From an uncultured Bacteroidales bacterium (lineage in GTDB: Bacteria > Bacteroidota > Bacteroidia > Bacteroidales > FEN-979): a stretch of DNA of 62,938 nucleotides. A program made the position numbers and the translations under genes. Where the stretch lies: NCBI GenBank assembly GCA_903929315.1, contig CAIYUC010000050.1, forward strand, positions 1 through 62,938. The letters run 5' to 3'. This document shows positions 18,738-59,693 of the stretch, in pieces. The notes under the pieces are model-generated. The model saw nothing but the letters and a program-made list of their open reading frames with translations. It was not told the DNA's origin and searched no databases. The stretch's first letter is position 1. Each line of letters opens with the position of its first letter.

Positions 18738-19079
18738 ATGAAAATAGCAATTCCAACAGAAGATGGATTAACTGTAAATCAGAATTTCAAACCAGCAAAG
18801 GGTTTTCTGGTATCAACCATTCAATTAGGTGAGGTTGTTCAGCAGGAAATGAGATGGAATTTATATAACGACATTATGACCTCAGAGGACGGCTATTATA
18901 ATAATCTTGTAGATTGTGATAAAGTGATCGTCAAGGAAATCGATTGTAATCAAAGCGATTATCTTCAATTGAAGAAAAAAGAAGTGATAAAAACCAGGGA
19001 AACGATAATTACCAAAGTACTCATACAATATTTAAATTTTTATTTACAGAAAGATACCAATACTTGTTGTTGCCCATGA
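18738..19079 (+). CDS. NifX/dinitrogenase cofactor-like protein with cysteine tail
   Basis: 113 residues of the NifX/NifB-C-terminal (dinitrogenase Fe-Mo cofactor biosynthesis) fold, starting MKIAIPTEDGL. It is a clear paralogue of the protein at 31622-31951 (shared GFLV-T, RWNL, TS-DG, N-DCD-VIV pattern). It ends in CCCP, adding three adjacent cysteines. The fold binds metal-sulfur clusters in nitrogenase maturation, but no nif genes are visible. Here it heads the sulfur island and may carry or insert a cluster or metal. Function is inferred. Confidence 0.8.
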   Translation: MKIAIPTEDGLTVNQNFKPAKGFLVSTIQLGEVVQQEMRWNLYNDIMTSEDGYYNNLVDCDKVIVKEIDCNQSDYLQLKKKEVIKTRETIITKVLIQYLNFYLQKDTNTCCCP

Positions 19080-19210
19080 TGATACGGGAATTTCCCCTTA
19101 CCCTGATTCATCATTTCTTTTAAACAATATTTCTCAATTCATATGATTCAAACTAATCGATGCTGCCTCTCCTAAAAGATACGAATCATAAAATTTATTC
19201 CAGGGACATT

Positions 19211-20677
19211 ATGAACCTTGAAGAATACTTCAAGGTGTTCCGGGAAAATACGATTGGTTACAATCATCGTTATCAAACACCTTATGGCCGGAAAACAATG
19301 CTCTATGCGGATTGGATCGCCAGTGGCAGGCTATATCTTCCGATAGAAAAAAAGATACTAAATTCCATCGGGCCATTCATTGGGAATACACATACAGAAA
19401 CCAGTGAAAATGGCAAATTGATGACCCAGGCATATCAATTGGCACATCAGAAAATTAAAGATCACGTGAATGCCGGAAACGGCGATGTCATTCTTACCAC
19501 AGGTTTTGGAATGACCGGAGCGATAGTGAAATTTCAACGTATTTTAGGGCTGAAAGTATGCGGTGAGATATCACACCATAAATGCCTGAAGGAATCCGAA
19601 AAACCCGTTGTTTTTGTTACCCACATGGAGCATCACTCCAACCAGACGACATGGTATGAGACTTCTGCAGATGTTGTCGTCATTGAACCAGGAAAGGACT
19701 TGCTGGTAGATCTTAATAAACTTGAAGAAGCATTAATAAAATTTAAGGATCATAAGAGAAAAATAGGGTCTTTTACTGCGTGTTCCAATGTTACCGGCAT
19801 CCGGACGCCTTATCATGAAATGGCACGATTGATGCATGAATATGATGGATTAGCATTTGTTGATTTTGCTGCTTCCGCACCCTACGATGAAATTAATATA
19901 CATCCTGATGATCCACTTGAAAAGCTTGATGCAATCTTTTTTTCACCCCATAAATTTCTGGGAGGACCTGGAGCATCGGGTGTTTTAGTGTTTGATTCTT
20001 CCCTGTATAATAATAAAACCCCTGATCAGCCCGGAGGTGGAACCGTTGACTGGACAAATCCGTGGGGCGAGTATAAATATATTGATAATATTGAAATTCG
20101 TGAAGACGGCGGTACTCCAGGGTTTCTGCAAGCAATAAGAACAGCATTATCGCTGGAATTGAAAAATCAAATGGGGGTTGATCCAATCCGCCAGCGCGAA
20201 AACGAACTCAACTCTTTAGCTTTTTCTGAATTACGAAAAGTTTCTGATTTGCATATATTGGCCAATAATGTTGAGAACAGACTTGGAGTTATTTCCTTTT
20301 ACATTGATTCAATCCATTATAATCTTATCGTAAAACTGCTCAGTGATCGGTTTGGAATTCAGGTTAGAGGGGGATGCGTATGTGCAGGTACATATGGACA
20401 CTATTTACTCAATGTCAGTTATGATAAGTCGAAAAAGATCACCGATAAGATCAATCTTGGAGATTTATCTGAAAAACCTGGATGGGTAAGGCTTTCCATT
20501 CATCCAACCATGAAAGATGAAGAATTGCATTACATCGTCGATGCCTTAAAACAAATACAAAAGAATCAACTGGAATGGGGGAAAGACTATACCTATAATA
20601 AAAACACCAACGAGTTTAGATATAACAAGAGCACCGATGGTACAAAAGTTGAATCGTGGTTTAAATTGGATTCATGA
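19211..20677 (+). CDS. Class V aminotransferase, cysteine desulfurase-like
   Basis: About 488 residues from the ATG at 19211 (MNLEEYFKVF); an upstream ATG at 19160 is possible. PLP-dependent fold with FFSPHKFLGGPGASG (the PLP lysine, about residue 250) and TEEYADxx-like blocks (SFTACSNVTGIRTPYHEM, LAFVDFAASAPYD). The segment RGGCVCAGTYGH near the C-terminus supplies cysteines where desulfurases have their catalytic loop. It is longer than IscS/SufS (about 400 residues). Likely releases sulfur from cysteine or a related thiol and feeds the DsrC/TusA carriers encoded downstream. Confidence 0.85.
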   Translation: MNLEEYFKVFRENTIGYNHRYQTPYGRKTMLYADWIASGRLYLPIEKKILNSIGPFIGNTHTETSENGKLMTQAYQLAHQKIKDHVNAGNGDVILTTGFGMTGAIVKFQRILGLKVCGEISHHKCLKESEKPVVFVTHMEHHSNQTTWYETSADVVVIEPGKDLLVDLNKLEEALIKFKDHKRKIGSFTACSNVTGIRTPYHEMARLMHEYDGLAFVDFAASAPYDEINIHPDDPLEKLDAIFFSPHKFLGGPGASGVLVFDSSLYNNKTPDQPGGGTVDWTNPWGEYKYIDNIEIREDGGTPGFLQAIRTALSLELKNQMGVDPIRQRENELNSLAFSELRKVSDLHILANNVENRLGVISFYIDSIHYNLIVKLLSDRFGIQVRGGCVCAGTYGHYLLNVSYDKSKKITDKINLGDLSEKPGWVRLSIHPTMKDEELHYIVDALKQIQKNQLEWGKDYTYNKNTNEFRYNKSTDGTKVESWFKLDS

Positions 20678-21045: not shown

Positions 21046-21690
21046 ATGTATTGGTATCACTGGATTACGTTGGGATCACTCGGGATTTGTTTTGCCAATT
21101 CTTTAGTTCATTTTCTTCGTCTTATCAGATTGGGGAAACCCATGGATTATTCATCTCCTGCCGGAAAGATTATTCCTTCCATTCAATATTCATTCACCGG
21201 GGCTATGAACCCTGTAAAGAAAGAATCGGCTTTTTTGCATTTACCCACATATTTCGCAGGTATTATTTATCACCTTGGAACCTTCTTATCGATTTTGATG
21301 TTTTTCCTCATTTGGTCAGATCTCCCTTTACAAGATATTTTAATTTATTCAATAGTTTCTTTTCTTTTGATCTCCTTTTCCTGCGGTATAGGCATCCTGA
21401 TAAAACGGTTGTTAAAAAAAGGGCTGCGTGATCTTTCCAACCCGGATGATTATTTATCGAACCTACTGGTTACTGGATTCCAACTGATGACAGGAATTGT
21501 ACTCCTTTGGAATCAGGCATATCCTGCTTATTTTATTCTTTCTAGTTTGTTGTTATTATATTTTCCCCTCAGCAAATTGAAACATGCCATTTATTTCTTT
21601 GCAGCCCGCTATCATCTTGGATTTTTCTTTGGTTGGCGGGGAATCTGGCCACCAAAAAAATTAGAAAGGAATGGCGGATGGGAGAATTGA
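21046..21690 (+). CDS. DsrM/HdrE/NarI-like membrane cytochrome b subunit
   Basis: 214 residues with about five transmembrane segments and histidines at helix positions (HFLRLIRLGKP, LPTYFAGIIYHLGTFLSIL, LKHAIYFFAARYHLGFFFGW), as in b-heme subunits that exchange electrons with quinone. It starts 14 bases after dsrC and overlaps the following DsrK-like gene by 13 bases, so the two products probably form a complex. The ATG at 21046 gives the membrane frame; the ATG at 21042 opens an unrelated frame. Confidence 0.83.
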   Translation: MYWYHWITLGSLGICFANSLVHFLRLIRLGKPMDYSSPAGKIIPSIQYSFTGAMNPVKKESAFLHLPTYFAGIIYHLGTFLSILMFFLIWSDLPLQDILIYSIVSFLLISFSCGIGILIKRLLKKGLRDLSNPDDYLSNLLVTGFQLMTGIVLLWNQAYPAYFILSSLLLLYFPLSKLKHAIYFFAARYHLGFFFGWRGIWPPKKLERNGGWEN

Positions 21691-22985
21691 ACAAAGAACA
21701 AATCAGAAAAGGCCTTCAAGTATTTCAGAACCTTTCAGATAGTAAACTTATCACACATCTGAATAGCTGTGTTCATTGTGGTCTGTGCGCTGAAAGCTGC
21801 ATCTATTACCTGGCCACTAAGGAAAATCGCTTTACTCCTGCCCGTAAGGTTGATATCGTTGCATCGATTTATCGCCGATATCATACAATTACAGGAAAAT
21901 TTTTGCCCGGGCTGATCAATGCACGTGAACTAAACGAAGAAACGACTGACGAAATGGTTGACTTGCTGTTTGGTGCATGCACCATGTGCGGCCGATGTAC
22001 AATGCATTGTTCCATTGGCGTCGATATAGAATACCTGGTCAGGGTTGGTCGTACGATGCTTTCCAATATGGGGATGGTGCCGGCTACACTACAATCCACA
22101 GTAAATGCCGCTGTCGAAACCGGGAATAACATGAGCATCCCTAATGATGAATTCATTGCAACATTAAAGTGGATGGAAGAGGAACTTATTGATGAAGTGA
22201 ATAATCCAAATGCCAAAATACCGGTTAATGAATCGGGGAAAAGGATCCTTTACACACTGAATCCCAGGGAACCGAAATTCTTCCCACTTTCCATCTCTGC
22301 CATGGCAAAGATTTTTTTTGCTGCAGGTGAAAGCTGGACATTGTCTACTCAAATGTATGATGTAACCAACTATGCATATTTCTCAGGTAACCCGGATGAA
22401 GCCAGATTGATTGCTCTCCGTCTTTGGAATGAGATGGGAAACCTGAATGCCCAAACACTGGTATTGGCTGAATGTGGTCATGGTTCCAGGGCTTTTCGAT
22501 GGGAGGCCCCGAATTATCTGCAGGAACATTTCCCGTTTGAAGTTAAAACTTCAGTGGAATGTATTGCTGACTATATTCGTGAAGGGAAGATCCACCTTGA
22601 TCCTGAAAAAATCAAAGATGTTGTGACTTTGCATGATCCATGCAACCTGGTCAGAAGCGGCGGGATTATACATGAACAGCGTTATATCCTGAATCGGTTT
22701 ATCGCCAATTTTGTGGAGATGACCCCCCATGGCATCGATAATTATTGTTGCGGTGGTGGGGGTGGACAATTGTCTATGAGTGAATACAATGAGCGCCGGA
22801 TGAAAATCGCAGAGATCAAAGCCAGACAAATACGGAATACGGGTGCAAGTGTGGTCGTTACACCATGCCATAATTGTGTTGATCAACTTAACCAGATCAA
22901 TGTTTTCTTTAAACTAGGTGTAAGAATAAAAACCCTGGCGGAAATTGTGGCCGATGCCTTGATCTTAGATACTGAATCCCCATAA
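21678..22985 (+). CDS. DsrK/HdrD-like iron-sulfur protein (CCG domains)
   Basis: About 435 residues from the ATG at 21678 (MGELNKEQ). N-terminal two [4Fe-4S] ferredoxin motifs: CVHCGLCAESC (about residue 31) and CTMCGRCTMHC (about 100). C-terminal cysteine-rich CCG region: HDPCNLVRSGG, NYCCGGGGG and TPCHNCVDQL, which in HdrB/HdrD/DsrK binds the non-cubane or special cluster that cleaves disulfides. Together with the DsrM-like subunit it forms a minimal DsrMK-type unit able to move electrons between quinone and a DsrC trisulfide. It is the only CCG-domain protein in the window. Confidence 0.9.
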   Translation: MGELNKEQIRKGLQVFQNLSDSKLITHLNSCVHCGLCAESCIYYLATKENRFTPARKVDIVASIYRRYHTITGKFLPGLINARELNEETTDEMVDLLFGACTMCGRCTMHCSIGVDIEYLVRVGRTMLSNMGMVPATLQSTVNAAVETGNNMSIPNDEFIATLKWMEEELIDEVNNPNAKIPVNESGKRILYTLNPREPKFFPLSISAMAKIFFAAGESWTLSTQMYDVTNYAYFSGNPDEARLIALRLWNEMGNLNAQTLVLAECGHGSRAFRWEAPNYLQEHFPFEVKTSVECIADYIREGKIHLDPEKIKDVVTLHDPCNLVRSGGIIHEQRYILNRFIANFVEMTPHGIDNYCCGGGGGQLSMSEYNERRMKIAEIKARQIRNTGASVVVTPCHNCVDQLNQINVFFKLGVRIKTLAEIVADALILDTESP

Positions 22986-23013: not shown

Positions 23014-24174
23014 ATGAGTAACTTGATTTACCTCGACAATTCTGCTACTACCTTTCCAAAGCCGGACGTAGTATATGATTTTATGATTGACTTCTACCGA
23101 AAACACGGAGTTAATCCAGGACGATCAGGTTTTGATGCAGCCATTGAAACCGAAGAAGTCGTGCATGATACCCGGAAAATGCTTACAGAATTATTTAATG
23201 GAGATGATCCCAACCGTTTAACCTTTAGTTATAATGCCAGCGATTCCCTGAACATGATCCTGCAGGGTTTGGCTGAACCAGGCGACCATGTGATCACTAC
23301 GATGCTGGAACATAATTCTGTTTTGCGGCCATTGTATTACCTGGAGTTTAACAAGATTATCACAGTTACGCATATCCCCTTCGATAAGCATGGATATGTT
23401 AATCCTGGTGATTTTAAAAAAGCCCTTCGTAAGAATACAAAGATGGTTGTTGTAAATCATTGTTCCAATGTTATTGGTACTATACAACCACTTACTGAAA
23501 TTGGAAAAATTTGTAAGGAGGCCGGGGTTAATTTTGTGGTCGACAGCAGCCAGAGTGCAGGTACAATTCCCATCGATATAAAAGCAATGGGAATAGATGT
23601 ACTGGTCTTTACAGGCCATAAATGCCTTATGGGTCCAACGGGAATCGGAGGCTCCTATGTAATGGAGGGAGTGCCTGTTCGTATTACCCGATTTGGTGGG
23701 ACAGGTGTTCGATCGGCTCAGAAGAGCCATCTTGAAGAGTTCCCCTATCGATTAGAATGCGGGACATTAAATATTATGGGAGTTGCAGGTTTAAATGCTG
23801 GTATAAAATGGGTACTGGAGCAAGGCATCGATAATCTCCACCAAAAAGAGATCATGCTTTGGGACCGGCTGAGAAAAGGCATTCAGAATATTGGGAATGT
23901 CATAACTTATTGTGCCGAAAGCAGTGAGAATCAAAACCCGGTTCTTAGTCTTAACATCAAAGGGTTTGAGTCGGGAGATGTGGGAACTATGCTCGATGTT
24001 GATTATAATATCGCATGTCGCACAGGATTACAATGCGCTCCTTTAGTTCATGCCGGATTGTTAACAGATAAGATACATGGTACCGTTCGTCTGAGTGTGG
24101 GCCCTTTCAATACCGAAGAACATATTGATGCTGCAATTCAGGCAATTGATGAAATCGCTTCAATTCGCAGGTAA
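23014..24174 (+). CDS. Cysteine desulfurase (NifS-like, class V aminotransferase)
   Basis: 386 residues. PLP motifs include YLDNSATTFPKP at the N-terminus, VNHCSNVIGTIQP, VDSSQSAGTIPID and FTGHKCLMGPTGIGG (PLP lysine, about residue 205). The catalytic-cysteine loop CRTGLQCAPLVH lies near residue 330. This is a full-length desulfurase that loads persulfide sulfur. It is the last gene before module A and starts 28 bases after the DsrK-like gene. Confidence 0.92.
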   Translation: MSNLIYLDNSATTFPKPDVVYDFMIDFYRKHGVNPGRSGFDAAIETEEVVHDTRKMLTELFNGDDPNRLTFSYNASDSLNMILQGLAEPGDHVITTMLEHNSVLRPLYYLEFNKIITVTHIPFDKHGYVNPGDFKKALRKNTKMVVVNHCSNVIGTIQPLTEIGKICKEAGVNFVVDSSQSAGTIPIDIKAMGIDVLVFTGHKCLMGPTGIGGSYVMEGVPVRITRFGGTGVRSAQKSHLEEFPYRLECGTLNIMGVAGLNAGIKWVLEQGIDNLHQKEIMLWDRLRKGIQNIGNVITYCAESSENQNPVLSLNIKGFESGDVGTMLDVDYNIACRTGLQCAPLVHAGLLTDKIHGTVRLSVGPFNTEEHIDAAIQAIDEIASIRR

Positions 24175-24303: not shown

Positions 24304-24849
24304 ATGAGTCTCGAGATTGATAAACAAATCCAGGAATTAAAAGAACAAGTGTCAAAACTGGAAAAAGGCACAAAAGATCAATTATCTATGGTCGTCTTCT
24401 CAGGTGACCTGGACAAGATATTAGCAGCTATGATAATTGCCACAGGTGCTGCCGCATTCGACATGAAAGTGAAACTCTTTTTCACATTCTGGGCAACTGC
24501 TGCACTAAGAGATCCCAAAAAGAGTGTAAAGGGAAAACATATCATGGCGAAGATGTTTGGCATGATGTTACCAAAAGGAAGTGGAAGGTTAAAACTTTCC
24601 AAGATGAACATGTGTGGCATGGGAACTTCGATGATGAAAGGGCTGATGAAAAAGAACAAAGTAGCATCCCTTGAAGAAATGTTTTCAACCGCCGGTGAGC
24701 TTGGGATCGATATAAATATTTGCGAAATGTCGATGAATCTGATGGGATTTAAAAAAGAAGAAATGATAGATTATCCCAATCTTGCAATCTGCGGTGTGGC
24801 AACTTTCCTTTCGGATGCGCAGGAAAGTAAAATACAATTATTCATATAA
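24304..24849 (+). CDS. DsrE2-like (DsrE/F/DrsH) sulfur-transfer protein, module A
   Basis: 181 residues. An N-terminal helical, coiled-coil-like segment (IQELKEQVSKLEKG) is followed by the DsrE-type fold (LSMVVFSGDLDKILAAMIIATGAAAFDMKVKLFFTF as family blocks). A conserved cysteine lies in INICEMSM (about residue 140), the position at which DsrE2 proteins carry a persulfide. The immediately following tusA gene is the classic partner. First gene of module A. Confidence 0.9.
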   Translation: MSLEIDKQIQELKEQVSKLEKGTKDQLSMVVFSGDLDKILAAMIIATGAAAFDMKVKLFFTFWATAALRDPKKSVKGKHIMAKMFGMMLPKGSGRLKLSKMNMCGMGTSMMKGLMKKNKVASLEEMFSTAGELGIDINICEMSMNLMGFKKEEMIDYPNLAICGVATFLSDAQESKIQLFI

Positions 24850-24863
24850 AAAACGTGAAAAAT

Positions 24864-25115
24864 ATGACAAGTGAAGAGTTAAAAAGTCTGAAATCAAACA
24901 AAGTGGTAGATGCACGCGGCACAGCTTGTCCCGGCCCATTATTAGCCGCAAAAAAAGCAATAGGTGAGATTGAATCCGGAGAGATTATGGAAATCTTTTC
25001 TTCGGATGAGGGAACGAAAAACGATATTCCGAAATGGTGTCAGAAGATGACCCATGAATTCCTTGGAATAGTCGAAGAAGACAGCTATTCAAGATTGTTT
25101 TTAAAAAAAGCATAA
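24864..25115 (+). CDS. tusA: TusA sulfur carrier protein, module A
   Basis: About 83 residues from the ATG at 24864; a GTG nine bases upstream is also possible. The family core DARGTACPGPLLAAKKAI holds the single persulfide-carrying cysteine in CPGP. An additional cysteine is present in KWCQKMT, absent from the module B copy. Soluble cytosolic carrier of sulfane sulfur, placed between the DsrE2-like and MvhD-like genes. Confidence 0.95.
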   Translation: MTSEELKSLKSNKVVDARGTACPGPLLAAKKAIGEIESGEIMEIFSSDEGTKNDIPKWCQKMTHEFLGIVEEDSYSRLFLKKA

Positions 25116-25249: not shown

Positions 25250-25648
25250 ATGGAAACCAAAAACACCCGACCTAAAATACTGGTCTTTTCCACCGATAAA
25301 ATTTCCGATCCCGGAATTGACCAGGCCGGATTGCGAAAAATACATTATTCCCCTGCAGTTTATGTTATCAGCTTGCCCTGTTCTTCTGGGATCAAGCCAA
25401 GGTGGATATTGCATGCTTTCAAACAGGGATTTGACGGAGTTTTTATTGCAGCTGACGGACATGAATGTTCATACAGTCCGAAATGTCCGGAATACACCAA
25501 CCAGATCATTGAAGAATCACAGCGCCTGATGAGGGAAAATGGCATAAGTCCAAAACGGATCCGTATGGCTGCAATTTGCTCAGTCTGTGCTGAGTCATTT
25601 GCTAACCATATGGCAAATTTTAGTAAAATATTAGCTGAACTGGAATGA
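25250..25648 (+). CDS. MvhD-like iron-sulfur protein with altered cysteine set, module A
   Basis: 132 residues aligning with the MvhD/FlpD fold that links HdrA to an electron donor. The N-terminal CxxC of canonical MvhD (as in CNWCSYTG of 59694-60119) is replaced by STDKISDPG. A new CSVC pair appears near residue 115 (AICSVCAESF). PCSSGIKPRWILHAF and HECSYSPKC match the central canonical cysteines. The end overlaps the HdrA-GltD start by 4 bases (ATGA). It probably docks on HdrA, but its cluster binding must differ from hydrogenase-linked MvhD. Confidence 0.85.
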   Translation: METKNTRPKILVFSTDKISDPGIDQAGLRKIHYSPAVYVISLPCSSGIKPRWILHAFKQGFDGVFIAADGHECSYSPKCPEYTNQIIEESQRLMRENGISPKRIRMAAICSVCAESFANHMANFSKILAELE

Positions 25649-28431
25649 CAAAGAATAACCAAATTTACGATTCCCTGGTTATCGGAGGAGGGATCGCCGG
25701 ACAGGAAGCGGCTTTGAACCTCGCCAATATGGATTACAAAGTGTTGATGGTCGAAAAAGGTCTTTCCATCGGTGGGAAAATGATACAATTAAGCAAGGTA
25801 TTTCCAACCCTCGATTGTGCAGCTTGTATCACTACACCTAAAATGTCGGAAACTGCACGGCATCCAAATATCACGGTTTTACTGAGCAGTGAGATTGAAA
25901 GTATACAAAAGGGAAATGGACAATTCCAGGTAGAAATAGCAAAACACCCCCGTTATGTGATTCCTGAAGCATGCACCGGATGCCAGGAATGCGAGCAAGC
26001 CTGCCCTGAAGTAAGACCGGATGAATACAATCAAATGCTTGCCGGGCGTAAAGTTGCTTACATTCCATTTAGCCTGGCAAATCCACGTATTGCCGTGATT
26101 GACAGGCAAAATGAATCAGCCCCTTGTATCTCTGCATGTCCGGGAGGAGTAAAACCATATGGATATATATCATTGGTAAGGAATGGCCAATATGAAGAAG
26201 CCATGAAAATCCATATGGAAGACGCTCCTCTTCCTGGCAGCCTTGGCAGAGCCTGCTATGCACCATGCGAGGGAGAATGTACCCGTGGCAGTCTGGAAGC
26301 GCCGGTTGATATCCGCCGGATAAAAAGGTTTTTTGCAGAAGATTATTATTCAAAACACCCTGAACCGCCAGCGATTATAATTGAAAAAAAATCCGGTAAA
26401 AGAGTTGCTATCGTTGGATCCGGGCCTGCAGGTCTCACAGCAGCTTATTTTCTTGCGTTAAAAGGACACCAGGTAAAAATCTTTGAAGCAGCGCCGGAAT
26501 TAGGTGGAATGTTAAAACTGACTCTACCTGAATACCGGTTACCGAACAGCGTTGTTGACAGGGATATTCAAAACATACTTTCACTTGGAGTTGAACACGA
26601 GGTCAACCGCAAGATTGTTCATCTTGAAGATCTTAAAAAAGAGGGATTTGATACTTTGTTCGTTTCAGTAGGTACTCATGAAACTACTCCCATGAAAATC
26701 GAAGGATCAAACCTACAGGGTATTGTCTCTTGTCTGGATTTTCTTCGTGAATCCAAAATCGGAAAAAAAACCGATTTGACGCGTAAAAGAGTGATGGTGA
26801 TTGGTGGTGGTAATACTGCAATGGATGCTTCTCGGACTGCTATCAGGCTTGGAGCTGCATCGGTAAAAATTATTTACCGGAGAAGCAGGGAAGAAATGCC
26901 TGCCTGGAAAGTGGAATTGCGCGAAGCAGAAGAAGAAGGTGTTAAAATCGATATGCTGTGTAATCCGGTAAAATTCATTGGCGAAAACGGAATCATTAAA
27001 AAAGCTGAACTGATCAGGATGAAATTAGGCAAACCTGATGAGAGCGGCAGAAAAACCCCTGTCGAAATCAAAGGTTCAGAGTATTCAGAAGAGGTTGACT
27101 TTGTCATTGAGGCCATTGGATTACAACCAACGACTTCCATCTTCAAAAACGAACTGGAGCTTGCCAAAAATGGCAGAATAAAAGTCAATTCAAAAACGCT
27201 TCAAACTACCACTCCCTGGATCTTTGCAGGAGGAGACTCTGTAACCGGATCCACTACGATCATTGAAGCCGTCGGACAGGGGAAAAAAGCCGCTTTGTAC
27301 ATCGACAAATATCTTAATAATGAAAATCCTGAAGATTTTGAGTTCGGCGATAAACTAGCTGCTATCGATAAGAAGGTGATCCTGAGCCGTGGTACTATTT
27401 TACACCGGCCTGCATTGGATGATAATTTGCGGCCGGTTGAAGAAAGAATCAGGGATTTTGAAGATATTGAGCGCACCTTTACAGAAGTTCAGGTCAAACA
27501 AAGTACCGACCGTTGCCTGGATTGCAGCAATTGCCGTGAATGTCATCAGTGCATCACTGCTTGCCCTGCAAATGCAATCGATTTCTCACAAAAAGAGGAG
27601 AAAATCTTAGCCAAAGCAAGCAGCATCATTGTTTCCTCCGGCTTTAATCTATTCAACCCGGATGGAAAACCGCAATATGGTTCTGCAAAATACGCCAATG
27701 TAATTGATTCACTACAGATGGACCGGCTGATCGCACCCACACGTCCGTTTAACAATGTCTTACGTCCGGGTGACGGGAAGGTACCTGGAAATATTGCGTA
27801 TGTCCTCTGCACTGGTTCACGTGATTCGAGCCTGGAGAATTACCGGTCATGTAACATGGCAAGCGCCAACAACCCAATCTGCTCACAAATCTGTTGCATG
27901 TATTCAATTAAACAAGCCCAGCTTTTGATGGGAGCCTTGCCAATGGCTGATATTACTATTTATTACATAGATATTCGGGCTTTCGGTAAAGGATATGAAG
28001 AGTTTTACCAGCAATCGAATTCGATGGGCGTCAACTTTGTGAAAGGAAAAGTGGCAAGGATCCGGGAAGAAGACAAAAGCGGCGATCTGATCCTGCGATT
28101 TGAGAATATAGAAACCGGACAGGTGAAAGAGGTTAAGCATGACCTGGTGGTATTGTCCGTTGGTGTTCAGCCAAACAATGAAATTGTAAAGGCTTTTAAG
28201 GGTGCGCTTCTTGAAATGGATGAATTCAGTTTCATTAAACAAGTTGATGTATTAATGAGCCCTTCCAAAACAACAATAGAGGGTGTCTTTGTTGCCGGCA
28301 CTGCTGCCGGTCCAATGGATATCCCCGATTCCATACTTTCGGCCGGTTGTGCTGCCTCGGAGGTTGCAGCCTATCTTAATGCCCCACCCCAACCCTCCCC
28401 TTTCGGGGAGGGAGCGGTTATGGCTCAATAA
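25645..28431 (+). CDS. HdrA-like flavoprotein with an inserted GltD-type NAD(P)H domain, module A
   Basis: 928 residues. Residues 1-152 are the HdrA N-terminal part: FAD motif VIGGGIAGQEAAL, conserved FPTLDCAACITTPK, and ferredoxin cysteines CTGCQECEQACP. Residues about 155-610 are a GltD/NfnB-type unit: [4Fe-4S] cysteines, FAD motif VGSGPAGLTAAY (about 255) and NAD(P)H-binding VIGGGNTAMDASRTA (about 385), ending IFAGGDSVTGSTTI. From residue 620 HdrA resumes (CLDCSNCRECHQCITACP, LCTGSRD, ICSQICCMYSIKQAQ). The module B paralogue (43855-45198) has the same HdrA halves joined without this insertion. The C-terminal tail NAPPQPSPFGEGA is encoded by a GC-rich palindromic repeat. Likely couples NAD(P)H to quinone or sulfur electrons. 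Confidence 0.93.
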   Translation: MTKNNQIYDSLVIGGGIAGQEAALNLANMDYKVLMVEKGLSIGGKMIQLSKVFPTLDCAACITTPKMSETARHPNITVLLSSEIESIQKGNGQFQVEIAKHPRYVIPEACTGCQECEQACPEVRPDEYNQMLAGRKVAYIPFSLANPRIAVIDRQNESAPCISACPGGVKPYGYISLVRNGQYEEAMKIHMEDAPLPGSLGRACYAPCEGECTRGSLEAPVDIRRIKRFFAEDYYSKHPEPPAIIIEKKSGKRVAIVGSGPAGLTAAYFLALKGHQVKIFEAAPELGGMLKLTLPEYRLPNSVVDRDIQNILSLGVEHEVNRKIVHLEDLKKEGFDTLFVSVGTHETTPMKIEGSNLQGIVSCLDFLRESKIGKKTDLTRKRVMVIGGGNTAMDASRTAIRLGAASVKIIYRRSREEMPAWKVELREAEEEGVKIDMLCNPVKFIGENGIIKKAELIRMKLGKPDESGRKTPVEIKGSEYSEEVDFVIEAIGLQPTTSIFKNELELAKNGRIKVNSKTLQTTTPWIFAGGDSVTGSTTIIEAVGQGKKAALYIDKYLNNENPEDFEFGDKLAAIDKKVILSRGTILHRPALDDNLRPVEERIRDFEDIERTFTEVQVKQSTDRCLDCSNCRECHQCITACPANAIDFSQKEEKILAKASSIIVSSGFNLFNPDGKPQYGSAKYANVIDSLQMDRLIAPTRPFNNVLRPGDGKVPGNIAYVLCTGSRDSSLENYRSCNMASANNPICSQICCMYSIKQAQLLMGALPMADITIYYIDIRAFGKGYEEFYQQSNSMGVNFVKGKVARIREEDKSGDLILRFENIETGQVKEVKHDLVVLSVGVQPNNEIVKAFKGALLEMDEFSFIKQVDVLMSPSKTTIEGVFVAGTAAGPMDIPDSILSAGCAASEVAAYLNAPPQPSPFGEGAVMAQ
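28382..28414. repeat. GC-rich palindromic repeat forming the HdrA-GltD C-terminus
   Basis: CCCCACCCCAACCCTCCCC, TTTC, GGGGAGGGA. Same type as 1763-1796, again read in frame; it supplies the last residues of the protein. Confidence 0.65.
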
Positions 28432-28437
28432 ATTTAT

Positions 28438-30441
28438 ATGGAAGAGAAACAGAAAAAAGAACGAATAGGAGTTTATATCTGCCATTGTGGCGGAAACATC
28501 TCTGATTACGTGGACGTGTCTAAAATCAAAGACATTGTGAAAACTGAAAAAGGGGTGATAGTATCTAAGAATGTCATGTTTGCTTGTGCTGATTCCAATC
28601 AGAAGGAGATGATCAGGGATATACAGGATGAAAAACTTGACGGTATTGTTGTAGCCTCCTGTTCACCCAAACTCCATTTGCATACTTTCCGCAATGTTGC
28701 CCAGAGAGCCGGGATAAATCAATATAATTACACCCAGGTGAACATTCGTGAACAATGTTCATGGGCTCATTCCGACACCCCCATGGAAGCAAGTATAAAA
28801 GCAGCAGGACTCATCCGTGCAGGCATAAACAAAGTCGTAAATTCCGAAGCCCTTGAAAATATTGAAGTTTCATCCACCAGGGCAGTTGTCATCATTGGAG
28901 CTGGCATTTCCGGAATGCGTGCCGCCATTGACCTGGCTAAAATGGGTAACCAGGTGTACCTGATTGAAAAGAAGAGTAACTTAGGAGGGCATGTAGCAAA
29001 ATGGGGTGAGCTTTACATCACACAACAAACAGGAAAGAACATCATTGCAAGTCTTACAAAAGAAATTAAAAAGTCACCAAATATTACAGTTTTCACTCTT
29101 GCAAACGTCGAAAAAGTTTCAGGCAGTATTGGTAATTTTATTGTCGAAGTTAAAACCGGGAATGAAATCCTGAACCTGAAATCAGGAGCTATCCTTGTCA
29201 CGACCGGATTTGATTCTTACATACCAAAGGAAGGTGAATTTGGTTACAAGAACTACCCGTCTGTAATAACACTTCCGGAATTCAGAGAACTGATCGAGAA
29301 TAGCAAGGAAACCCTGGTTTACAATAATCATAAGGTAAACAGTATTGCATACATTTATTGTGTAGGCATGAGACAGACCAAGGGAGAGAATAAATATTGT
29401 TCGCGGGTATGTTGCACCACGGCCATTCATAATTCCTTGCTAATTCATGAAAAATTCAAGAATATCAATACATATCATCTTTATCGGGATATACGTACTT
29501 ATGGCAAGCAGGAAATTCTATATGAACGTTCATCGAAGAACGGAGATATTTATCTGAAATATGAAGAAAAAACGCCACCTGTCGTAGAGGAAACTAATGG
29601 CAAACTCCTTGTAAAAATTAAAGATGAGCTTACCAAACGAAAGGATCTGGAGCTTGAGACTGATCTGGTGGTTCTTGTCACCGGGATGGTTCCGCGTAGT
29701 GATAGTTCACAGATTTCCGGAAAATTAAAGATCCCTGTCGGAAATGATAAATTCTTCAATGAAATACATCCAAAATTAAGACCTGTTGAAACTGTCATCA
29801 ATGGTGTATTTATAGGTGGTTCCTGCCAGGGACCGAAAAATATTTCAGAATCTGTTCAATCCTCACTGTCGGCTGCAGTCAAGATCAATGCTCTTACAAA
29901 AAACCCGACAATTCTGCTTGAACCCATTATTGCCCGGATCAATTTTGAAGCCTGCGTCTGGTGTGGGAAATGCGCTGAAGTATGTGAATACGACGCTATT
30001 CATCCACTGGAAATGCGGGACAAGGTTGTGGCATCGGTGAATGAAGCTGTCTGCAAGGGTTGCGGCATTTGTACCCCAATTTGCCCAATCGACGCCATCG
30101 ACATTGCTCAGTATTCCAATGCTGAGGTCGAAGGGATGATCGATGGATTTATGGAAACGGTTGTATTTGATAATACCGGAGGAAATGTTTCAGCTTTTGA
30201 AACGGGCGAAGGCACCAGGATGAAGGATATGCCTCAAATCTGGCGCAGAATAGCGGATTCTCTTGAAATTGATCCAAAAACGATTCCTGCTTTAGCTAAG
30301 GAACTCCAACTGAATCCTGAGCTCATTACCTATCACCTTATGACCATGAACAAATATAATATTGTTGAAGCCGATGGGATGGATGATTCGGACGAATACT
30401 ATGTCTATAAACTGAAAAACCTGCAGCATGTCGAAAATTGA
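28438..30441 (+). CDS. Second HdrA-like (QmoB-like) flavoprotein with fused C-terminal domain, module A
   Basis: 667 residues. The N-terminal HdrA accessory domain (IGVYICHCGGNISDYVDV, ASCSPKLHLHTFRNV, NIREQCSWAH) is followed by the FAD domain (VIIGAGISGMRAAIDLA, about residue 150). Then come the YCVGMRQ and CSRVCCTTA cysteine region and a two-cluster ferredoxin (CVWCGKCAEVC; CKGCGICTPIC). A final ~100-residue helical domain ends DSDEYYVYKLKN. Relative to the module B paralogue it lacks an ~85-residue internal ferredoxin insert and has fused what is a separate gene there (47175-47447). Overlaps the next gene by 14 bases. Confidence 0.9.
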   Translation: MEEKQKKERIGVYICHCGGNISDYVDVSKIKDIVKTEKGVIVSKNVMFACADSNQKEMIRDIQDEKLDGIVVASCSPKLHLHTFRNVAQRAGINQYNYTQVNIREQCSWAHSDTPMEASIKAAGLIRAGINKVVNSEALENIEVSSTRAVVIIGAGISGMRAAIDLAKMGNQVYLIEKKSNLGGHVAKWGELYITQQTGKNIIASLTKEIKKSPNITVFTLANVEKVSGSIGNFIVEVKTGNEILNLKSGAILVTTGFDSYIPKEGEFGYKNYPSVITLPEFRELIENSKETLVYNNHKVNSIAYIYCVGMRQTKGENKYCSRVCCTTAIHNSLLIHEKFKNINTYHLYRDIRTYGKQEILYERSSKNGDIYLKYEEKTPPVVEETNGKLLVKIKDELTKRKDLELETDLVVLVTGMVPRSDSSQISGKLKIPVGNDKFFNEIHPKLRPVETVINGVFIGGSCQGPKNISESVQSSLSAAVKINALTKNPTILLEPIIARINFEACVWCGKCAEVCEYDAIHPLEMRDKVVASVNEAVCKGCGICTPICPIDAIDIAQYSNAEVEGMIDGFMETVVFDNTGGNVSAFETGEGTRMKDMPQIWRRIADSLEIDPKTIPALAKELQLNPELITYHLMTMNKYNIVEADGMDDSDEYYVYKLKNLQHVEN

Positions 30442-31552
30442 TCCTGAATTTGCATCGGAAATAAAAAAATACGGCGCCAGGGATTTCAGTGCCTGTTTTA
30501 ACTGTGGTAATTGCACAGCTGTCTGCGGTCTCACTGATAAAAGCGTGAATTATCCCCGCATGTTCCTTCGTTATGGAATGCTTGGACTGCAGGAAGAGAT
30601 CCTGCAAAGCAAGGAAATCTGGCTATGTTATTCTTGCGGTGAATGCTCAGAAACCTGTCCCCGACAAGCCGGTCCAGGCGATTATATGGCGGCCCTTCGT
30701 CGTTATGCAATCGCCAGTTATGAACCTACCGGTCTGACAAAGCTGATCTTTAAAAGTAATCCCGCGTTTATCCTCTTTACAATTTTCCTTTCTGTGCTGC
30801 TTGGATTCTTCCTCTTCACACTGAAACCCGATCATGAAGTTTCCCGGTGGCTTTTTACTATCATCCCTTATGCAGTTATCCATAACATTGGACTGATCAT
30901 TTTTGGTGTCACTGGAATTTCCGTTATATGGGGTTTGTTGACGATGTTCTTAAAACTTTCAAAGGATACCGTGAAAAAAGATAAATCTAAAAGCAATTTT
31001 TGGAAATCATTGAAAGAAGTAATGAATGAACTTGCAACCATGAAACGCTACAAAACCTGTGATAAGGAAGAAGATTCCTATTGGCAGAGCAAGCCAGCCG
31101 CTGTTCAGCCCTGGTTTGTGCATTGGTCAATAATGTGGGGTTTTATCGGTTTGCTTGTAGCTACGGTTCTGGATTTTATGGTAAAAGATCCCGCAACAGA
31201 CATCTGGTGGCCCAGCCGTATCCTGGGAACAATTGCAGGGTTATTCCTTATCTATGGAACTACCCTGGCTGTAACATACCATATGACCCGGGTGACCAAG
31301 GCCTATGATAAGACCCGGCTGGCAGACTGGATGTTCCTGTTTTTCCTTTGGATTGCAGGGATAACTGGATTTTGGTTAGAAATTTCTGTTGCCTTTCAGG
31401 CAGATTATCTGACAAATCACATCATTTTCCTCATCCACACTATCATTTCCATGGAACTGGTGTTACTTTTTGCATTTTCAAAATTTGCCCATGCAGTATA
31501 CAGACCGCTTGCTTTGTTTTTTTATTTTAAATACAACAAGGACAAAAACTGA
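30428..31552 (+). CDS. QmoC-like protein: HdrC ferredoxin fused to b-type membrane domain, module A
   Basis: 374 residues. The N-terminus has two [4Fe-4S] motifs, CFNCGNCTAVCGL (about residue 23) and CYSCGECSETCPRQA (about 67). The C-terminal ~260 residues have five to six transmembrane helices with histidines (IPYAVIHNIGL, WFVHWSIMWGFIGLL, VTYHMTRVTK, IIFLIHTIISMEL, FAHAVYRPLAL). This HdrC-HdrE fusion defines QmoC, the quinone-interacting subunit. It anchors the two HdrA-like proteins to the membrane and exchanges electrons with menaquinone. Confidence 0.93.
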   Translation: MSKIDPEFASEIKKYGARDFSACFNCGNCTAVCGLTDKSVNYPRMFLRYGMLGLQEEILQSKEIWLCYSCGECSETCPRQAGPGDYMAALRRYAIASYEPTGLTKLIFKSNPAFILFTIFLSVLLGFFLFTLKPDHEVSRWLFTIIPYAVIHNIGLIIFGVTGISVIWGLLTMFLKLSKDTVKKDKSKSNFWKSLKEVMNELATMKRYKTCDKEEDSYWQSKPAAVQPWFVHWSIMWGFIGLLVATVLDFMVKDPATDIWWPSRILGTIAGLFLIYGTTLAVTYHMTRVTKAYDKTRLADWMFLFFLWIAGITGFWLEISVAFQADYLTNHIIFLIHTIISMELVLLFAFSKFAHAVYRPLALFFYFKYNKDKN

Positions 31553-31621
31553 TTTGCAGTTTTGAAGAGTGCTGTTCATCTTAAAATTTCACGAAAACAT
31601 GAAGCCATGGGAAATAAAACA

Positions 31622-31951
31622 ATGAAAGTTGCTATACCAACTGATGACGGGTTGATCGTTGGGGAGCAATGCAGGTGTTCCAGGGGCTTTCTCGTGGCAA
31701 CCGTGAAATCAGGAAAGATCGTTCACAAGGAACTGCGATGGAATTTACTCAGTGAGATCCTGACCTCGGATGACGGATTATTTTATAACCTTTGTGATTG
31801 TGATGTCGTAATCGTAAATCAAATCGGCGAGGTACACAGCGAACAACTGAAAGCTAAAAAAAAGAAGATCATCCGGACTGATGAAACAAATGTTGGCAAA
31901 GCATTTATCAACTTTCTGAGCAATAATCATAGCCTGGCTGATATAAAATAA
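31622..31951 (+). CDS. NifX-like protein of module A
   Basis: About 109 residues from the ATG at 31622 (MKVAIPTDDGL); ATGs at 31607 and 31562 are in frame. Dinitrogenase-cofactor fold, close paralogue of 18738-19079. Conserved pattern RGFLVATVKSGKIVHKELRWNL and CDCDVVIV. It carries CRCSRG and CDCD cysteines that could bind metal. Last gene of module A; module B has no equivalent. The following 259 bases (31952-32210) are very AT-rich with no recognised feature. Confidence 0.8.
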   Translation: MKVAIPTDDGLIVGEQCRCSRGFLVATVKSGKIVHKELRWNLLSEILTSDDGLFYNLCDCDVVIVNQIGEVHSEQLKAKKKKIIRTDETNVGKAFINFLSNNHSLADIK

Positions 31952-36383: not shown

Positions 36384-36785
36384 TTATTCATGATGGATGC
36401 AAGCTTCCTTATCACTGATCAATTTATCCGCTAAAAACAGCTCAACAGCTTTACGGGTTTCCATCTGAGTGGTGTTATAGATCTTTTTACCGGCGTTGGT
36501 AAGGTCGTCCACTAACCGGCGTCCCATACCTCCTGCAATTACCACTTCACAATCATTCAATGCATTCAATATTCTATTGTGAGAATGTTGGGCATGTTCC
36601 TCATGCTCAGCACCATGATGCTGATGGTTCTGATGCTGCCCTAATGCATGACCGGTAAAGTTGTTGAGTCGATACTCCTGATTGACAATCTGACCGTCTG
36701 CAACCTCAAAAATTGTAAATCCTAACGTTCTTCCAAAATGTTGACATAAATAGGTTCCTTCGTCACTGGGAATCGCGATTTTCAT
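36384..36785 (-). CDS. NifX/dinitrogenase cofactor-like protein with His-rich insert
   Basis: 133 residues starting MKIAIPSDEGTYLCQHFGRT, the common standalone dinitrogenase iron-molybdenum cofactor family. A histidine-rich stretch (HQNHQHHGAEHEEHAQHSH, about residues 51-70) and a terminal CIHHE suggest metal binding. Overlaps the DUF134 gene upstream by 23 bases. DUF134 regulators are frequently next to NifX-like genes. Confidence 0.88.
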   Translation of the reverse strand: MKIAIPSDEGTYLCQHFGRTLGFTIFEVADGQIVNQEYRLNNFTGHALGQHQNHQHHGAEHEEHAQHSHNRILNALNDCEVVIAGGMGRRLVDDLTNAGKKIYNTTQMETRKAVELFLADKLISDKEACIHHE

Positions 36786-40643: not shown

Positions 40644-40683
40644 CAAATTATAAATCCTATTGTATAACTTAACAGTTACTAAC

Positions 40684-41865
40684 ATGAATCTTGAAGATGC
40701 AGGCTTTTCCACAAAGTTAATCCATGCCGGAGAAATTGAAGATCAATTCGGAAGCGCTACAGTACCAATTTACCAAACCTCAACTTTTCGCTTTAAAAGT
40801 GCGCAACACGGAGCCGATTGCTTTTCAGGTGCAAGCGATGGCTATATTTATACCAGGATTGCAAATCCGACCATCCGTGCATTAGAACAAAACATTGCCG
40901 CCCTGGAAAATGGATTCGGTGGAATAGCCACCAGTTCCGGGATGGCGGCCATTACCAGTGTTTACATGGCACTGTTAAATGGAGGAGATCACATCATCAG
41001 TACCGCTGCGGTTTATGGACCGGCACGGGGCGTCCTGGAACAGGATTTTGCCCGTTTTCAGGTTGAAGCATCGTTTGTCAATACCGCGGATATTGAGGAA
41101 ATTAAAAAGGCAATCCAGCCAAACAGCAAAGTGCTTTACATTGAGACACCTGCAAATCCCACGATGGAAATTACAGACATCGCTGCTTGCGCTGTAATTG
41201 CCAAGGAACATGGACTGGTGTTGGTCGTGGATAATACGTTTTGCACTCCCTATCTGCAAAAACCATTGGATCTTGGGGCAGATGTCGTGCTTCATTCCGT
41301 TACTAAGTTCATCAATGGTCACGCCGATATTGTAGGTGGGATTATCATTACTAAAGAATCTGTTTTGTACAAAAAAATCCGTCATTGCATGGTGTATATG
41401 GGGTGCAATATGGATCCACACCAGGCATATATGGTTTTAAGGGGTGTAAAGACATTGTCAGTGCGAATCGATCGTAATCAGGATAATGCAATTAAAGTGG
41501 CAGCTTTTCTTGAGACCCATCCGAAAGTTTCCTGGATTAAGTACCCCGGATTAGCCTCTCATCCACAATTTGAATTGGCGAAGCGACAGATGTCAGGACC
41601 CGGTTCAATTATCAGCTTTGGATTGAAGGGTGGCCTTGAAGCAGGCAGAAAGCTTATGGATAATGTACATTTGGCAGTTCTTGCTGTTTCATTGGGAGGT
41701 GTAGAATCGCTGATCCAGCATCCGGCCTCTATGACACATGCTGGCATTTCAGTAGAAGATAAGCAAGAAGCAGGAATTACCGACGACCTTGTCAGGTTTT
41801 CAGTGGGAATTGAAAATGCTGAGAATATCATCAATGATTTGAGACAGGCGTTGGAGAAAGTCTGA
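40684..41865 (+). CDS. Cys/Met metabolism PLP-dependent enzyme (methionine gamma-lyase / cystathionine gamma-synthase family)
   Basis: About 393 residues from the ATG at 40684; the TTG at 40660 is rejected. Family blocks are TVPIYQTSTFRF, ARIANPT-like YTRIANPTIRALE, SSGMAAI, VVDNTFCTPYLQKP and the PLP lysine in LHSVTKFINGHADIVGG (about residue 205). The active-site loop reads YGPARG, where methionine gamma-lyases have YGCT. The cysteine of true lyases is thus absent, and O-acetylhomoserine sulfhydrylase or cystathionine synthase/lyase activity is equally possible. A TGAAC-N4-GTTCA operator and TATTTTTG precede it. Confidence 0.9.
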   Translation: MNLEDAGFSTKLIHAGEIEDQFGSATVPIYQTSTFRFKSAQHGADCFSGASDGYIYTRIANPTIRALEQNIAALENGFGGIATSSGMAAITSVYMALLNGGDHIISTAAVYGPARGVLEQDFARFQVEASFVNTADIEEIKKAIQPNSKVLYIETPANPTMEITDIAACAVIAKEHGLVLVVDNTFCTPYLQKPLDLGADVVLHSVTKFINGHADIVGGIIITKESVLYKKIRHCMVYMGCNMDPHQAYMVLRGVKTLSVRIDRNQDNAIKVAAFLETHPKVSWIKYPGLASHPQFELAKRQMSGPGSIISFGLKGGLEAGRKLMDNVHLAVLAVSLGGVESLIQHPASMTHAGISVEDKQEAGITDDLVRFSVGIENAENIINDLRQALEKV

Positions 41866-42634: not shown

Positions 42635-42749
42635 TTTTTCTTAATAAGGATCATATTATATATTAACGCACTCAATGACTCAATCATTATCTGTTAATTT
42701 CTTAACAGCTAATTTAGCAAAAAAATTAATTACTTTAAAATTAAAAAAT

Positions 42750-43166
42750 ATGGCAAAGAAAATGACAATAGCTCTCTATACCGGGAGCTTTGATAAACTA
42801 ACTGCAACAGGTGTCATTATCAATGGTGCCGTTGCCGATGATCTGGATGTAGAGATCTATGTATTGCTCATGGGAGCTAATGCATTTAAGAAAGAAAATA
42901 TCGGGAAAACAGACCACATGGCCGAACTGGCTGATAAAAAAGAGGAGTTCATCGCTTCTTTGAAGCAGCTAAAGGTCTCCACCTGGATGGAATTCTTCAA
43001 ACAGGCAAAAGAGATGGGTAATGTAAAGATCTATATCTGTGGACTGGCCGGAAAGATATGGAACGGCCTTGTGCTGGAAGATTTCAACGAACTGGCAGAT
43101 GATATTTGCGGAATCGGTGAATATATTGCTTCAGCCCAGACTGCAGATGTTAACTTATTCATTTAA
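42750..43166 (+). CDS. DsrE2-like sulfur-transfer protein, module B
   Basis: About 138 residues from the ATG at 42750 (MAKKMTIALYTGSFDKL); the longer frame from 42675 has an unlikely Lys/Leu-rich leader. DsrE-type fold with the conserved cysteine in IYICGLAGKIW (about residue 95) at the persulfide position, plus a second Cys in DDICGIG. Shorter than the module A copy, lacking its N-terminal helix. Followed by tusA. Confidence 0.88.
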   Translation: MAKKMTIALYTGSFDKLTATGVIINGAVADDLDVEIYVLLMGANAFKKENIGKTDHMAELADKKEEFIASLKQLKVSTWMEFFKQAKEMGNVKIYICGLAGKIWNGLVLEDFNELADDICGIGEYIASAQTADVNLFI

Positions 43167-43182
43167 CTTGATTCATACTGCA

Positions 43183-43431
43183 ATGAACACAGAAGAATTA
43201 AAAAAACTGAAACTGGATAAAGTGGTGGATGCCAGGGGCACTGCCTGTCCCGGACCCCTGATGGCCACAAAAAAAGCCATTGGAGAGATGAAGCCCGGTG
43301 AGATTATCGAGGTGCTATCCTCCGATCCGGGTACCAAAAGAGATATTCCCAAATGGGCCGTTAAGAAGGGTTTTGAATATCTGGGGGATATTCTTGAAGA
43401 CGGATATTTCCGTTTATACATAAAGAAATAG
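43183..43431 (+). CDS. tusA: TusA sulfur carrier protein, module B
   Basis: 82 residues. Core VVDARGTACPGPLMATKKAIGE with the CPGP persulfide cysteine as the only cysteine. Very similar to the module A copy, including EELKKLK and GTKRDIPKW. The start at 43183 follows the DsrE2-like stop by 16 bases. Confidence 0.95.
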   Translation: MNTEELKKLKLDKVVDARGTACPGPLMATKKAIGEMKPGEIIEVLSSDPGTKRDIPKWAVKKGFEYLGDILEDGYFRLYIKK

Positions 43432-43441
43432 CAACCATAGG

Positions 43442-45198: not shown

Positions 45199-45199
45199 A

Positions 45200-47149: not shown

Positions 47150-47174
47150 AAGATATAAGAAAGAACCTTCATAC

Positions 47175-54171: not shown

Positions 54172-54181
54172 GGTTGCCTTT

Positions 54182-57152: not shown

Positions 57153-57232
57153 ATATCCTCCTGATTTAGCTGTTTTAAAACGTTAGGGATCAAAAGATCT
57201 GTTTCCCCGATTAACAATTAAAAGTAACTTCA

Positions 57233-59679: not shown

Positions 59680-59693
59680 GATTAAGAATTTGT

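Follow-up and report, generated by a model that had tools for sequence, protein, structure and literature searches.

A short-form HdrL with a GltD-like unit inside its HdrA ferredoxin domain, encoded in a sulfur-carrier locus of an uncultured Bacteroidales bacterium

Results

A GltD-like unit within HdrA in a single open reading frame

We analyzed a 62,938-nucleotide stretch of DNA from an uncultured Bacteroidales bacterium (contig CAIYUC010000050.1 of assembly GCA_903929315.1, hereafter the window), in which a gene at 25645-28431 encodes HdrL, an HdrA protein interrupted by a GltD-like unit with motifs for flavin adenine dinucleotide (FAD), iron-sulfur ([Fe-S]) clusters, and a nicotinamide nucleotide. 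As originally predicted, the gene is a single open reading frame (ORF) of 928 aa without internal stop. Along the chain, an N-terminal part of HdrA is followed by a complete GltD-like unit, located within the HdrA ferredoxin domain, and then by the remainder of HdrA. Pfam placed Fer4_20 at residues 158-234 and Pyr_redox_2 at 253-546, the GltD-like model PRK12771 covered residues 155-651, and the HdrA2 model covered the C-terminal side of the protein. Archaeal HdrA aligned to residues 10-155 and 625-910, and an alignment with the unsplit 447-aa HdrA encoded elsewhere in the window showed an extra stretch in HdrL from residue ∼153 to ∼628. The insert separates the first Cys motif of the HdrA ferredoxin domain (C110-C120) from the second one (C630-C640). 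The original prediction of an inserted GltD-type unit is thus borne out by Pfam, models, and alignment, its extent being slightly lengthened from 155-610 to ∼154-628. The match to archaeal HdrA spanned only residues ∼143-574 of the latter, which means that HdrL has the HdrA core without the N-terminal Fe-S and C-terminal ferredoxin domains (A6 type).

Homologs, assembly integrity, and distribution

A scan of genome contigs yielded 451 related stretches, and the best 80, which represent the family members closest to the query, were retained as loci (numbered with the prefix L). A full-length homolog in one frame was present in 70 of these loci, and five further ones (L014, L058, L061, L079, and L083) were partial yet spanned both junctions, whereas the remaining five (L042, L069, L076, L087, and L051) were uninformative on the junctions owing to contig ends or a frame break. 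Since 75 of the 80 loci keep both HdrA/GltD junctions in one frame, HdrL is not an assembly chimera of two genes, a possibility named with the original prediction as one that would undo it; the one-frame homologs come from independent assemblies, including a genome of the same genus at 90% identity.

Sixty-four of the 80 loci are labeled Bacteroidota. The other 16 belong to Bacillota (five, four of them named strains), Aminicenantes (three), unassigned bacteria (three), and Acidobacteria, Zixibacteria, LCP-89, Spirochaetes, and Deltaproteobacteria (one each). At an E value of 1e-150, HdrL matches were found in 21 of 43 genomes of the bacterium's own family, fragments counted, and in 6 of 198 genomes of the order; at the stricter 1e-250, the only match among 395 genomes drawn from the phylum was in the bacterium's own genome.

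Conserved residues

Conservation was counted in a 71-row alignment of short-form HdrL. All 21 tabulated cysteines were present in every row, namely C58, C61, C110, C113, C116, C120, C161, C165, C204, C208, C212, C624, C627, C630, C633, C636, C640, C722, C746, C750, and C751. Residues K409 and E356 of archaeal HdrA have been named key residues in PMC12054007. K756 of HdrL, which aligns with the flavin lysine K409, is invariant (71/71), and position 693, equivalent to E356, is always acidic (D in 64 rows, E in 7). Within the insert, GGGN, A392, D394, and Y411-R412-R413 are invariant. The NAD(P)H site foreseen in the original prediction is therefore present with its residues kept in all rows, contrary to the concern that they might be non-functional, and the invariant motif refines the nucleotide to a putative NADP type (NADP, nicotinamide adenine dinucleotide phosphate). 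We presume that the YRR residues serve the NADP phosphate.

Predicted structure and nature of the insert

The structure of HdrL was predicted with AlphaFold2 from the 71-row alignment, and Foldseek was also used to find structural relatives. The model had an overall predicted local distance difference test score (pLDDT) of 85.4 and a predicted template modeling score of 0.80. HdrA (5odi_A) superimposed on residues 7-916, across the insert (Z 40.6, root mean square deviation 2.4, 418 residues aligned), NfnABC (9bov_A) on residues 154-640 (Z 47.5, root mean square deviation 2.0, 477 aligned), and NfnB (4ylf_B) gave a Z score of 37.5 with 42% identity. The HdrA fold and the NADPH unit are thus both predicted to be intact in one chain, as the original prediction had supposed.

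The solved relatives of the insert with the highest scores were 9bov, 9n5u, and 8oh5, which are of the NfnABC/StnABC type, NfnB being lower in score and coverage. According to PMC10482914, the StnC flavin is non-bifurcating, and in one Stn state the FAD-proximal [4Fe-4S] cluster apparently has K170 as a ligand, a position held by Glu in NfnB. The equivalent K227 of HdrL is Lys in all 71 rows, so that the NfnB-type Glu is absent, and the RCLxC stretch that follows the GltD part in StnC is also present. R298, at the place of NfnB R201 (an Arg near FAD N5), is invariant, and StnC has an Arg (R239) at that place too. Score, coverage, and the Lys point to an insert of the Stn type. The Lys also suggests, by analogy, that the inserted FAD is non-bifurcating and that the NADPH feed into the HdrA flavin is linear, in which case any bifurcation would more likely sit at the HdrA flavin than at the inserted one.

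Gene neighborhood

HdrL belongs to a gene set, which we call module A, that is conserved across the family (Table 1); counts were taken over loci with enough contig room. A TusA gene lies upstream of HdrL in 70 of 70 loci and MvhD directly upstream in 73 of 74. The lone miss is L051, in which the HdrL frame is broken and MvhD is listed upstream of its first piece. DsrE2 is found near HdrL in 43 of 47 loci, the exceptions being L065, L068, L073 (where a DsrE2-like gene lies 8.3 kb upstream, beyond the counted window), and L086. A second, QmoB-like HdrA follows HdrL in all 68 loci, counted as one frame per locus with overlap allowed (60/68 with a strict window), and the residue at its flavin-lysine position is H in 49, Y in 11, Q in 4, N in 2, and F and S in 1 each, never K. 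Of 62 loci, 52 have a full-size QmoC-like protein at the end of the module and 9 have HdrC and HdrB there, the terminus being undetermined in 1; domains were examined in two example loci, L085 and L070. The nine HdrC-HdrB loci comprise five of Bacillota, L078, L086, and two of Bacteroidales (L063 and L064). The QmoC-like protein of the window also has a weak, below-cut-off Pfam match to the nitrate reductase gamma subunit. As originally predicted, one chain appears to combine the flavin site of HdrA with that of an NAD(P)H unit, and its gene sits among sulfur carriers in a Qmo-like set.

No dsrA or aprA match was found in the bacterium's own genome (98.5% complete), nor did any of 14 control genomes pass the cut-offs. 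Sulfate or sulfite reduction was rejected on the ground of these missing matches.

History of the insertion

The unsplit HdrA paralog on which the original prediction had relied to date the insertion is real and belongs to a second gene set, module B. The dating itself is not supported, since the unsplit sequences fall inside the split clade and the same site took up GltD units more than once. Our tree of the HdrA part held 52 rows (34 of the 71 short HdrLs, 6 unsplit HdrAs, 3 long forms, and 9 other HdrAs; no archaeal type III sequences). Short HdrLs and unsplit module B orthologs formed a joint clade (support 100/100), with the unsplit rows nested among Bacteroidota HdrLs (99/97 on that side and 90/89 at the nearest node, which was not starred). 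Forcing the 34 short HdrLs into one clade cost 17.55 log units, with a P value of 0.0167 in the approximately unbiased (AU) test, a comparison made after the tree had been seen. That module B preserves the state before the insertion was accordingly rejected as the simplest reading. Module B may have lost its insert; its second ferredoxin motif looks canonical (CGPGAIDF), so that it may have undergone replacement through recombination instead of a simple loss. Alternatively, the insert may have been gained repeatedly.

The GltD tree (40 rows, likewise without archaeal type III sequences) gave a single clade (100/100) for the 34 short-form inserts and that of the long form from L149 (Aminicenantes); the L149 insert branches inside the short forms (98/97) and sits on a different HdrA. 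The HdrA parts and inserts of L150 and L151 both lie away from the short forms, the pairing of these two in the GltD tree being flagged as two long branches meeting. A single origin of all GltD insertions is ruled out by the placement of L150 and L151 and by the L149 insert on a different HdrA. The simplest reading of the trees would be that the short form gained the unit once, long ago, that module B lost it or had it replaced, that L149 received it by transfer, and that L150/L151 gained theirs in at least one separate event. For archaea, PMC12054007 describes two separate GltD insertions.

The long forms are encoded at L149:5812-9249 (1146 aa), L150:4793-9256 (1488 aa), and L151:6148-10572 (1475 aa), with GltD at the same site. 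The L150 and L151 frames continue into a second HdrA, and an MvhD-like ORF lies beside each of the three.

Other genes in the window

Table 1. Features of HdrL, its locus, and related genes in the window
Feature	Position	Strand	Remark
HmcE-like membrane protein	21046..21690	+	Outside conserved core; weak match, 27.3 bits (cut-off 275)
TmcB/HmcF/DsrK-like CCG protein	21633..22985	+	Outside conserved core; possible disulfide/persulfide site
DsrE2-like sulfurtransferase	24304..24849	+	Pfam DrsE_2
TusA sulfur carrier	24855..25115	+	CPGP motif; Pfam TusA in homologs
MvhD (FlpD)	25250..25648	+	Window gene
HdrA N-terminal half, residues 1-153	25645..26103	+	Rossmann motif GGGIAG for FAD, C58 and C61, and the first Cys motif of the ferredoxin domain (C110-C120); aligns structurally with archaeal HdrA
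Inserted GltD-like NADPH unit, residues ∼154-628	26104..27528	+	Pfam, models, alignment, predicted structure
K227	26323..26325	+	Aligns with StnC K170; K in 71/71
FAD motif GSGPAG of insert, residues 258-263	26416..26433	+	
GGGNTAMD, residues 387-394	26803..26826	+	GxGxxA-type Rossmann motif of insert, read as NADP(H)
YRR, residues 411-413	26875..26883	+	Invariant
Cys-rich junction C624, C627, C630, C633, C636, C640	27514..27564	+	GltD RCLxC pair continuing into second HdrA ferredoxin motif
HdrA C-terminal half, residues 629-928	27529..28428	+	K756 (= archaeal HdrA K409), D693 (= E356)
Second HdrA (QmoB-like)	28438..30441	+	Model match; H at flavin-lysine position
QmoC-like subunit	30428..31552	+	HdrC-type ferredoxin part and membrane part; qmoC model 193.8 bits (cut-off 300)
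Unsplit HdrA paralog, module B, 447 aa	43855..45198	+	Comparison sequence
MvhD of module C	59694-60119	-	

Upstream of HdrL are two pyridoxal phosphate (PLP) enzymes related to cysteine desulfurases (19160-20677 and 23014-24174); of the 58 loci whose upstream sequence exceeds 5 kb, 12 have a homolog of the 505-aa PLP enzyme there. A YedE/TsuA-like transporter gene at 14822-15835 matches Pfam Sulf_transp above the cut-off and the TsuA model below it. Three small proteins encoded near Hdr genes (18738-19079, 31562-31951, and 36384-36785) are presumably NifX/NafY-like. The QmoB-like protein of module A has a C-terminal extension; at the same place, a small ORF stands by itself in module B and in Desulfotruncus. 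Extension and ORF are perhaps the same piece, fused or free. The small ORF at L085:14429-14680 has weak helix-turn-helix matches below the cut-off.

Module B (42675-48580) consists of a DsrE2-like gene (identified by Pfam only), TusA, MvhD, the unsplit HdrA, a QmoB-like protein, a 101-aa ORF, and QmoC; it is the same operon type as module A minus the NADPH insert, and a methionine gamma-lyase-like gene lies nearby (40660-41865). Module C (52420-60119, minus strand) encodes the large and small subunits of a NiFe hydrogenase, MvhD, two HdrAs that both keep the flavin lysine, and a QmoC-like protein, and appears to be a hydrogen-fed Hdr-Qmo-like set; the best models for its hydrogenase and MvhD genes were Vhu or HdrA2, all below cut-offs. 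A hydrogenase precedes the similar set in module C, whereas TusA and the DsrE2-like gene take its place in modules A and B. A response regulator is encoded at 51987-52391.

Discussion

The HdrA-GltD architecture is already in print, as HdrL in 2009 (PMC2702500), as HdrA9-11 in 2022 (PMC9012536), and as type III HdrA in 2025 (PMC12054007). Our searches of open-licence PMC papers turned up no description of a short HdrL from bacteria that belongs to a conserved TusA-MvhD-HdrL-HdrA-(QmoC or HdrC-HdrB) locus, in most cases accompanied by DsrE2. Our best reading, which we hold with middling confidence, is that short-form HdrL belongs to an NADP(H)-coupled complex of the Hdr/Qmo type that is tied to persulfide carriers and to menaquinone.

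In such a complex, HdrL would be a Qmo-sized HdrA subunit, with a complete NADP(H)-FAD-Fe/S unit borne on its ferredoxin arm. In methanogen HdrABC, this arm is the low-potential exit to ferredoxin. Hydride would be exchanged between NADP(H) and the inserted, probably non-bifurcating FAD, and electrons would travel a linear path to the HdrA flavin, first via two [4Fe-4S] clusters of GltD type and then via those of the HdrA ferredoxin domain. From this flavin they would reach the second HdrA, a putative QmoB-like relay without flavin lysine, and then menaquinone via QmoC or, in a soluble form of the complex, HdrC-HdrB instead of QmoC. MvhD would offer a third port for electrons, and TusA, in most loci together with DsrE2, would supply or take up sulfane sulfur. 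The net reaction would likely connect NADP(H) with persulfide sulfur and menaquinone, the HdrA flavin being the point of coupling.

Published systems resemble this locus in part. HdrL of Desulfobacterium autotrophicum combines HdrA and GltD (glutamate-synthase) parts in one chain with mvhD adjoining, as here, and is a large form, in some cases with selenocysteine, HdrL1 being followed by dsrABC (PMC2702500). An HdrL-like HdrA of Desulfurivibrio dismutans, reported in 2025, likewise joins HdrA and GltD parts with an MvhD gene alongside, and lies beside formate dehydrogenase and Wood-Ljungdahl genes (PMC12142623). Compared with these two by description only, the protein studied here is a 928-aa form accompanied by TusA, DsrE2, QmoB-like, and QmoC-like genes; an NADH binding site has been given for HdrL, and the nucleotide site present here has a motif that reads as NADP type. 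In Desulfotomaculum reducens (Dred_1325-1330), a large HdrA with putative NADH-binding domains lies beside a second HdrA, HdrBC, and MvhD; the large HdrA was detected as a protein, and the excerpt mentions a formate dehydrogenase neighbor and names no sulfur carrier (PMC4759654). The type III HdrA/HdrA9-11 proteins of ANME-1 and Bathyarchaeota carry a GltD/NfnB unit in the HdrA ferredoxin domain, as does HdrL (PMC12054007 and PMC9012536), and class A9 equals A6 plus the insert, i.e., a short core as here. For nine archaeal type III sequences, NAD(H) was proposed from a GXGXXG motif (PMC12054007), while PMC9012536 suggests NADPH; the present family has GSGPAG as the FAD motif of the insert and GGGNxA as its second Rossmann motif, is bacterial, and lies in a sulfur-carrier locus.

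Among characterized enzymes, methanogen HdrABC (5odc and relatives) has the HdrA fold, Fe-S motifs, flavin lysine, and MvhD in common with the HdrL locus, which differs by the missing N-terminal Fe-S and C-terminal ferredoxin domains and by the NADPH unit in the ferredoxin arm. In gene order, QmoABC agrees with the HdrL locus, two HdrA-type subunits preceding a QmoC-like membrane subunit. However, the QmoC-like protein scores below the QmoC cut-off, MvhD and TusA are present, and for AprAB, the partner of QmoABC, no aprA match was found within the limits given above. The GltD domain of StnC/NfnABC (8oh5, 9bov, and 9n5u) shares the proximal-cluster Lys and RCLxC with the HdrL insert; that domain is fused to a NuoG-like part and works, as described for Stn, with a HydBC-like module, whereas the HdrL unit sits inside HdrA. 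NfnB, which works with an NfnA partner, has the same GltD-type NADPH-FAD domain with a proximal-cluster Glu that is not found in HdrL.

Several observations weigh against the complex that we favor. Bacteroidota loci mostly lack HdrB in the conserved core and just 7 of 58 loci carry a TmcB-like CCG protein upstream of HdrL, which leaves the Bacteroidota core with no identified persulfide site; DsrE2 is missing nearby in four loci, neither dsrA nor aprA has a match in the bacterium's genome (the control genomes being likewise below the cut-offs), and TusA and DsrE2 could merely share an operon with HdrL. The HdrL model contains no ligands, cofactor binding being what we infer, and its pLDDT falls below 50 in the HdrA segments 57-59, 698-702, 727-745, and 779-782, while the E356 equivalent is Asp in most HdrLs. 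As to the Stn type, identity cannot separate the insert's relatives (38 to 41% for the Stn/NfnABC domain and 42% for NfnB), and in the second Stn state the Lys contact is largely lost and C114 takes over (PMC10482914, in the passage on Stn), a position occupied by P (40 rows) or A (31 rows) in the 71 HdrLs.

The most serious alternative, which we nonetheless consider unlikely, is a simple non-bifurcating NADPH:quinone oxidoreductase in which electrons would run from the insert through HdrA and the QmoB-like protein to QmoC, with MvhD and TusA accessory or regulatory. The Stn-like Lys, the full-size QmoC in 52 of 62 loci, and the lack of a flavin lysine in the second HdrA of all 68 loci agree with it, but the invariance of K756 in HdrL and the retention of MvhD and TusA in nearly all and all loci, respectively, do not, and a quinone route leaves the nine HdrC-HdrB loci unexplained. 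An oxidative route akin to that of sHdr, in which TusA sulfane sulfur would be oxidized and electrons passed to quinone and NADP+, strikes us as quite improbable. The lipoate-binding protein LbpA marks sHdr. TusA and DsrE2 as neighbors of HdrL and the YedE/TsuA-like transporter in the window are in keeping with this route, as is the occurrence of TusA and DsrE-type proteins beside Hdr-like sulfur-oxidizing clusters (PMC6067878, in the part consulted), yet HdrB is mostly missing from the Bacteroidota core. Bifurcation at both the inserted and the HdrA flavins, as proposed for ANME-1 HdrA-NfnB in the relevant text of PMC9012536, is very unlikely, for homology of the insert to NfnB and the invariant R298 are set against a StnC-like K instead of the NfnB Glu in 71 of 71 rows and no NfnA-like protein among the 10 window ORFs scanned with Pfam.

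The direction in which the favored NADP(H)-coupled complex would run can be considered from redox potentials. The S0/HS- couple lies near -270 mV. In-cell values of -370 mV for NADPH and -280 mV for NADH appear in the relevant section of PMC10482914, and an abstract gives -74 mV for menaquinone. The mean of the NADPH and menaquinone arms, about -220 mV, is not far from S0/HS-, so that both directions would be possible. A bolder proposal, which we regard as doubtful, is that TusA-DsrE2-MvhD-HdrL-QmoBC would constitute a further Hdr class, a membrane-bound enzyme of flavin-based bifurcation or confurcation with protein-bound persulfide (the S0/HS- couple) at middle, NADP(H) at low, and menaquinone at high potential, which would give Bacteroidota without detected Dsr/Apr an NADPH-tied sulfur respiration.

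So far, HdrA-GltD fusions have been published for certain archaea and sulfate reducers, their direction and partners being open. The bacterial short form occurs across Bacteroidota and several other phyla, with TusA, MvhD, and the redox motifs kept, and these neighbors and motifs point to an NADPH-coupled Hdr complex tied to sulfur carriers in an organism where neither dsrA nor aprA was detected. A single site in the HdrA ferredoxin domain took up NADPH units more than once, and the HdrL loci of cultured Bacillota (Desulfotruncus and Desulfotomaculum) open a route to tests. Together, a sulfur carrier and a quinone-linked membrane subunit in one locus suggest an enzyme in which the chemistry of NADPH, sulfur, and quinones is coupled.

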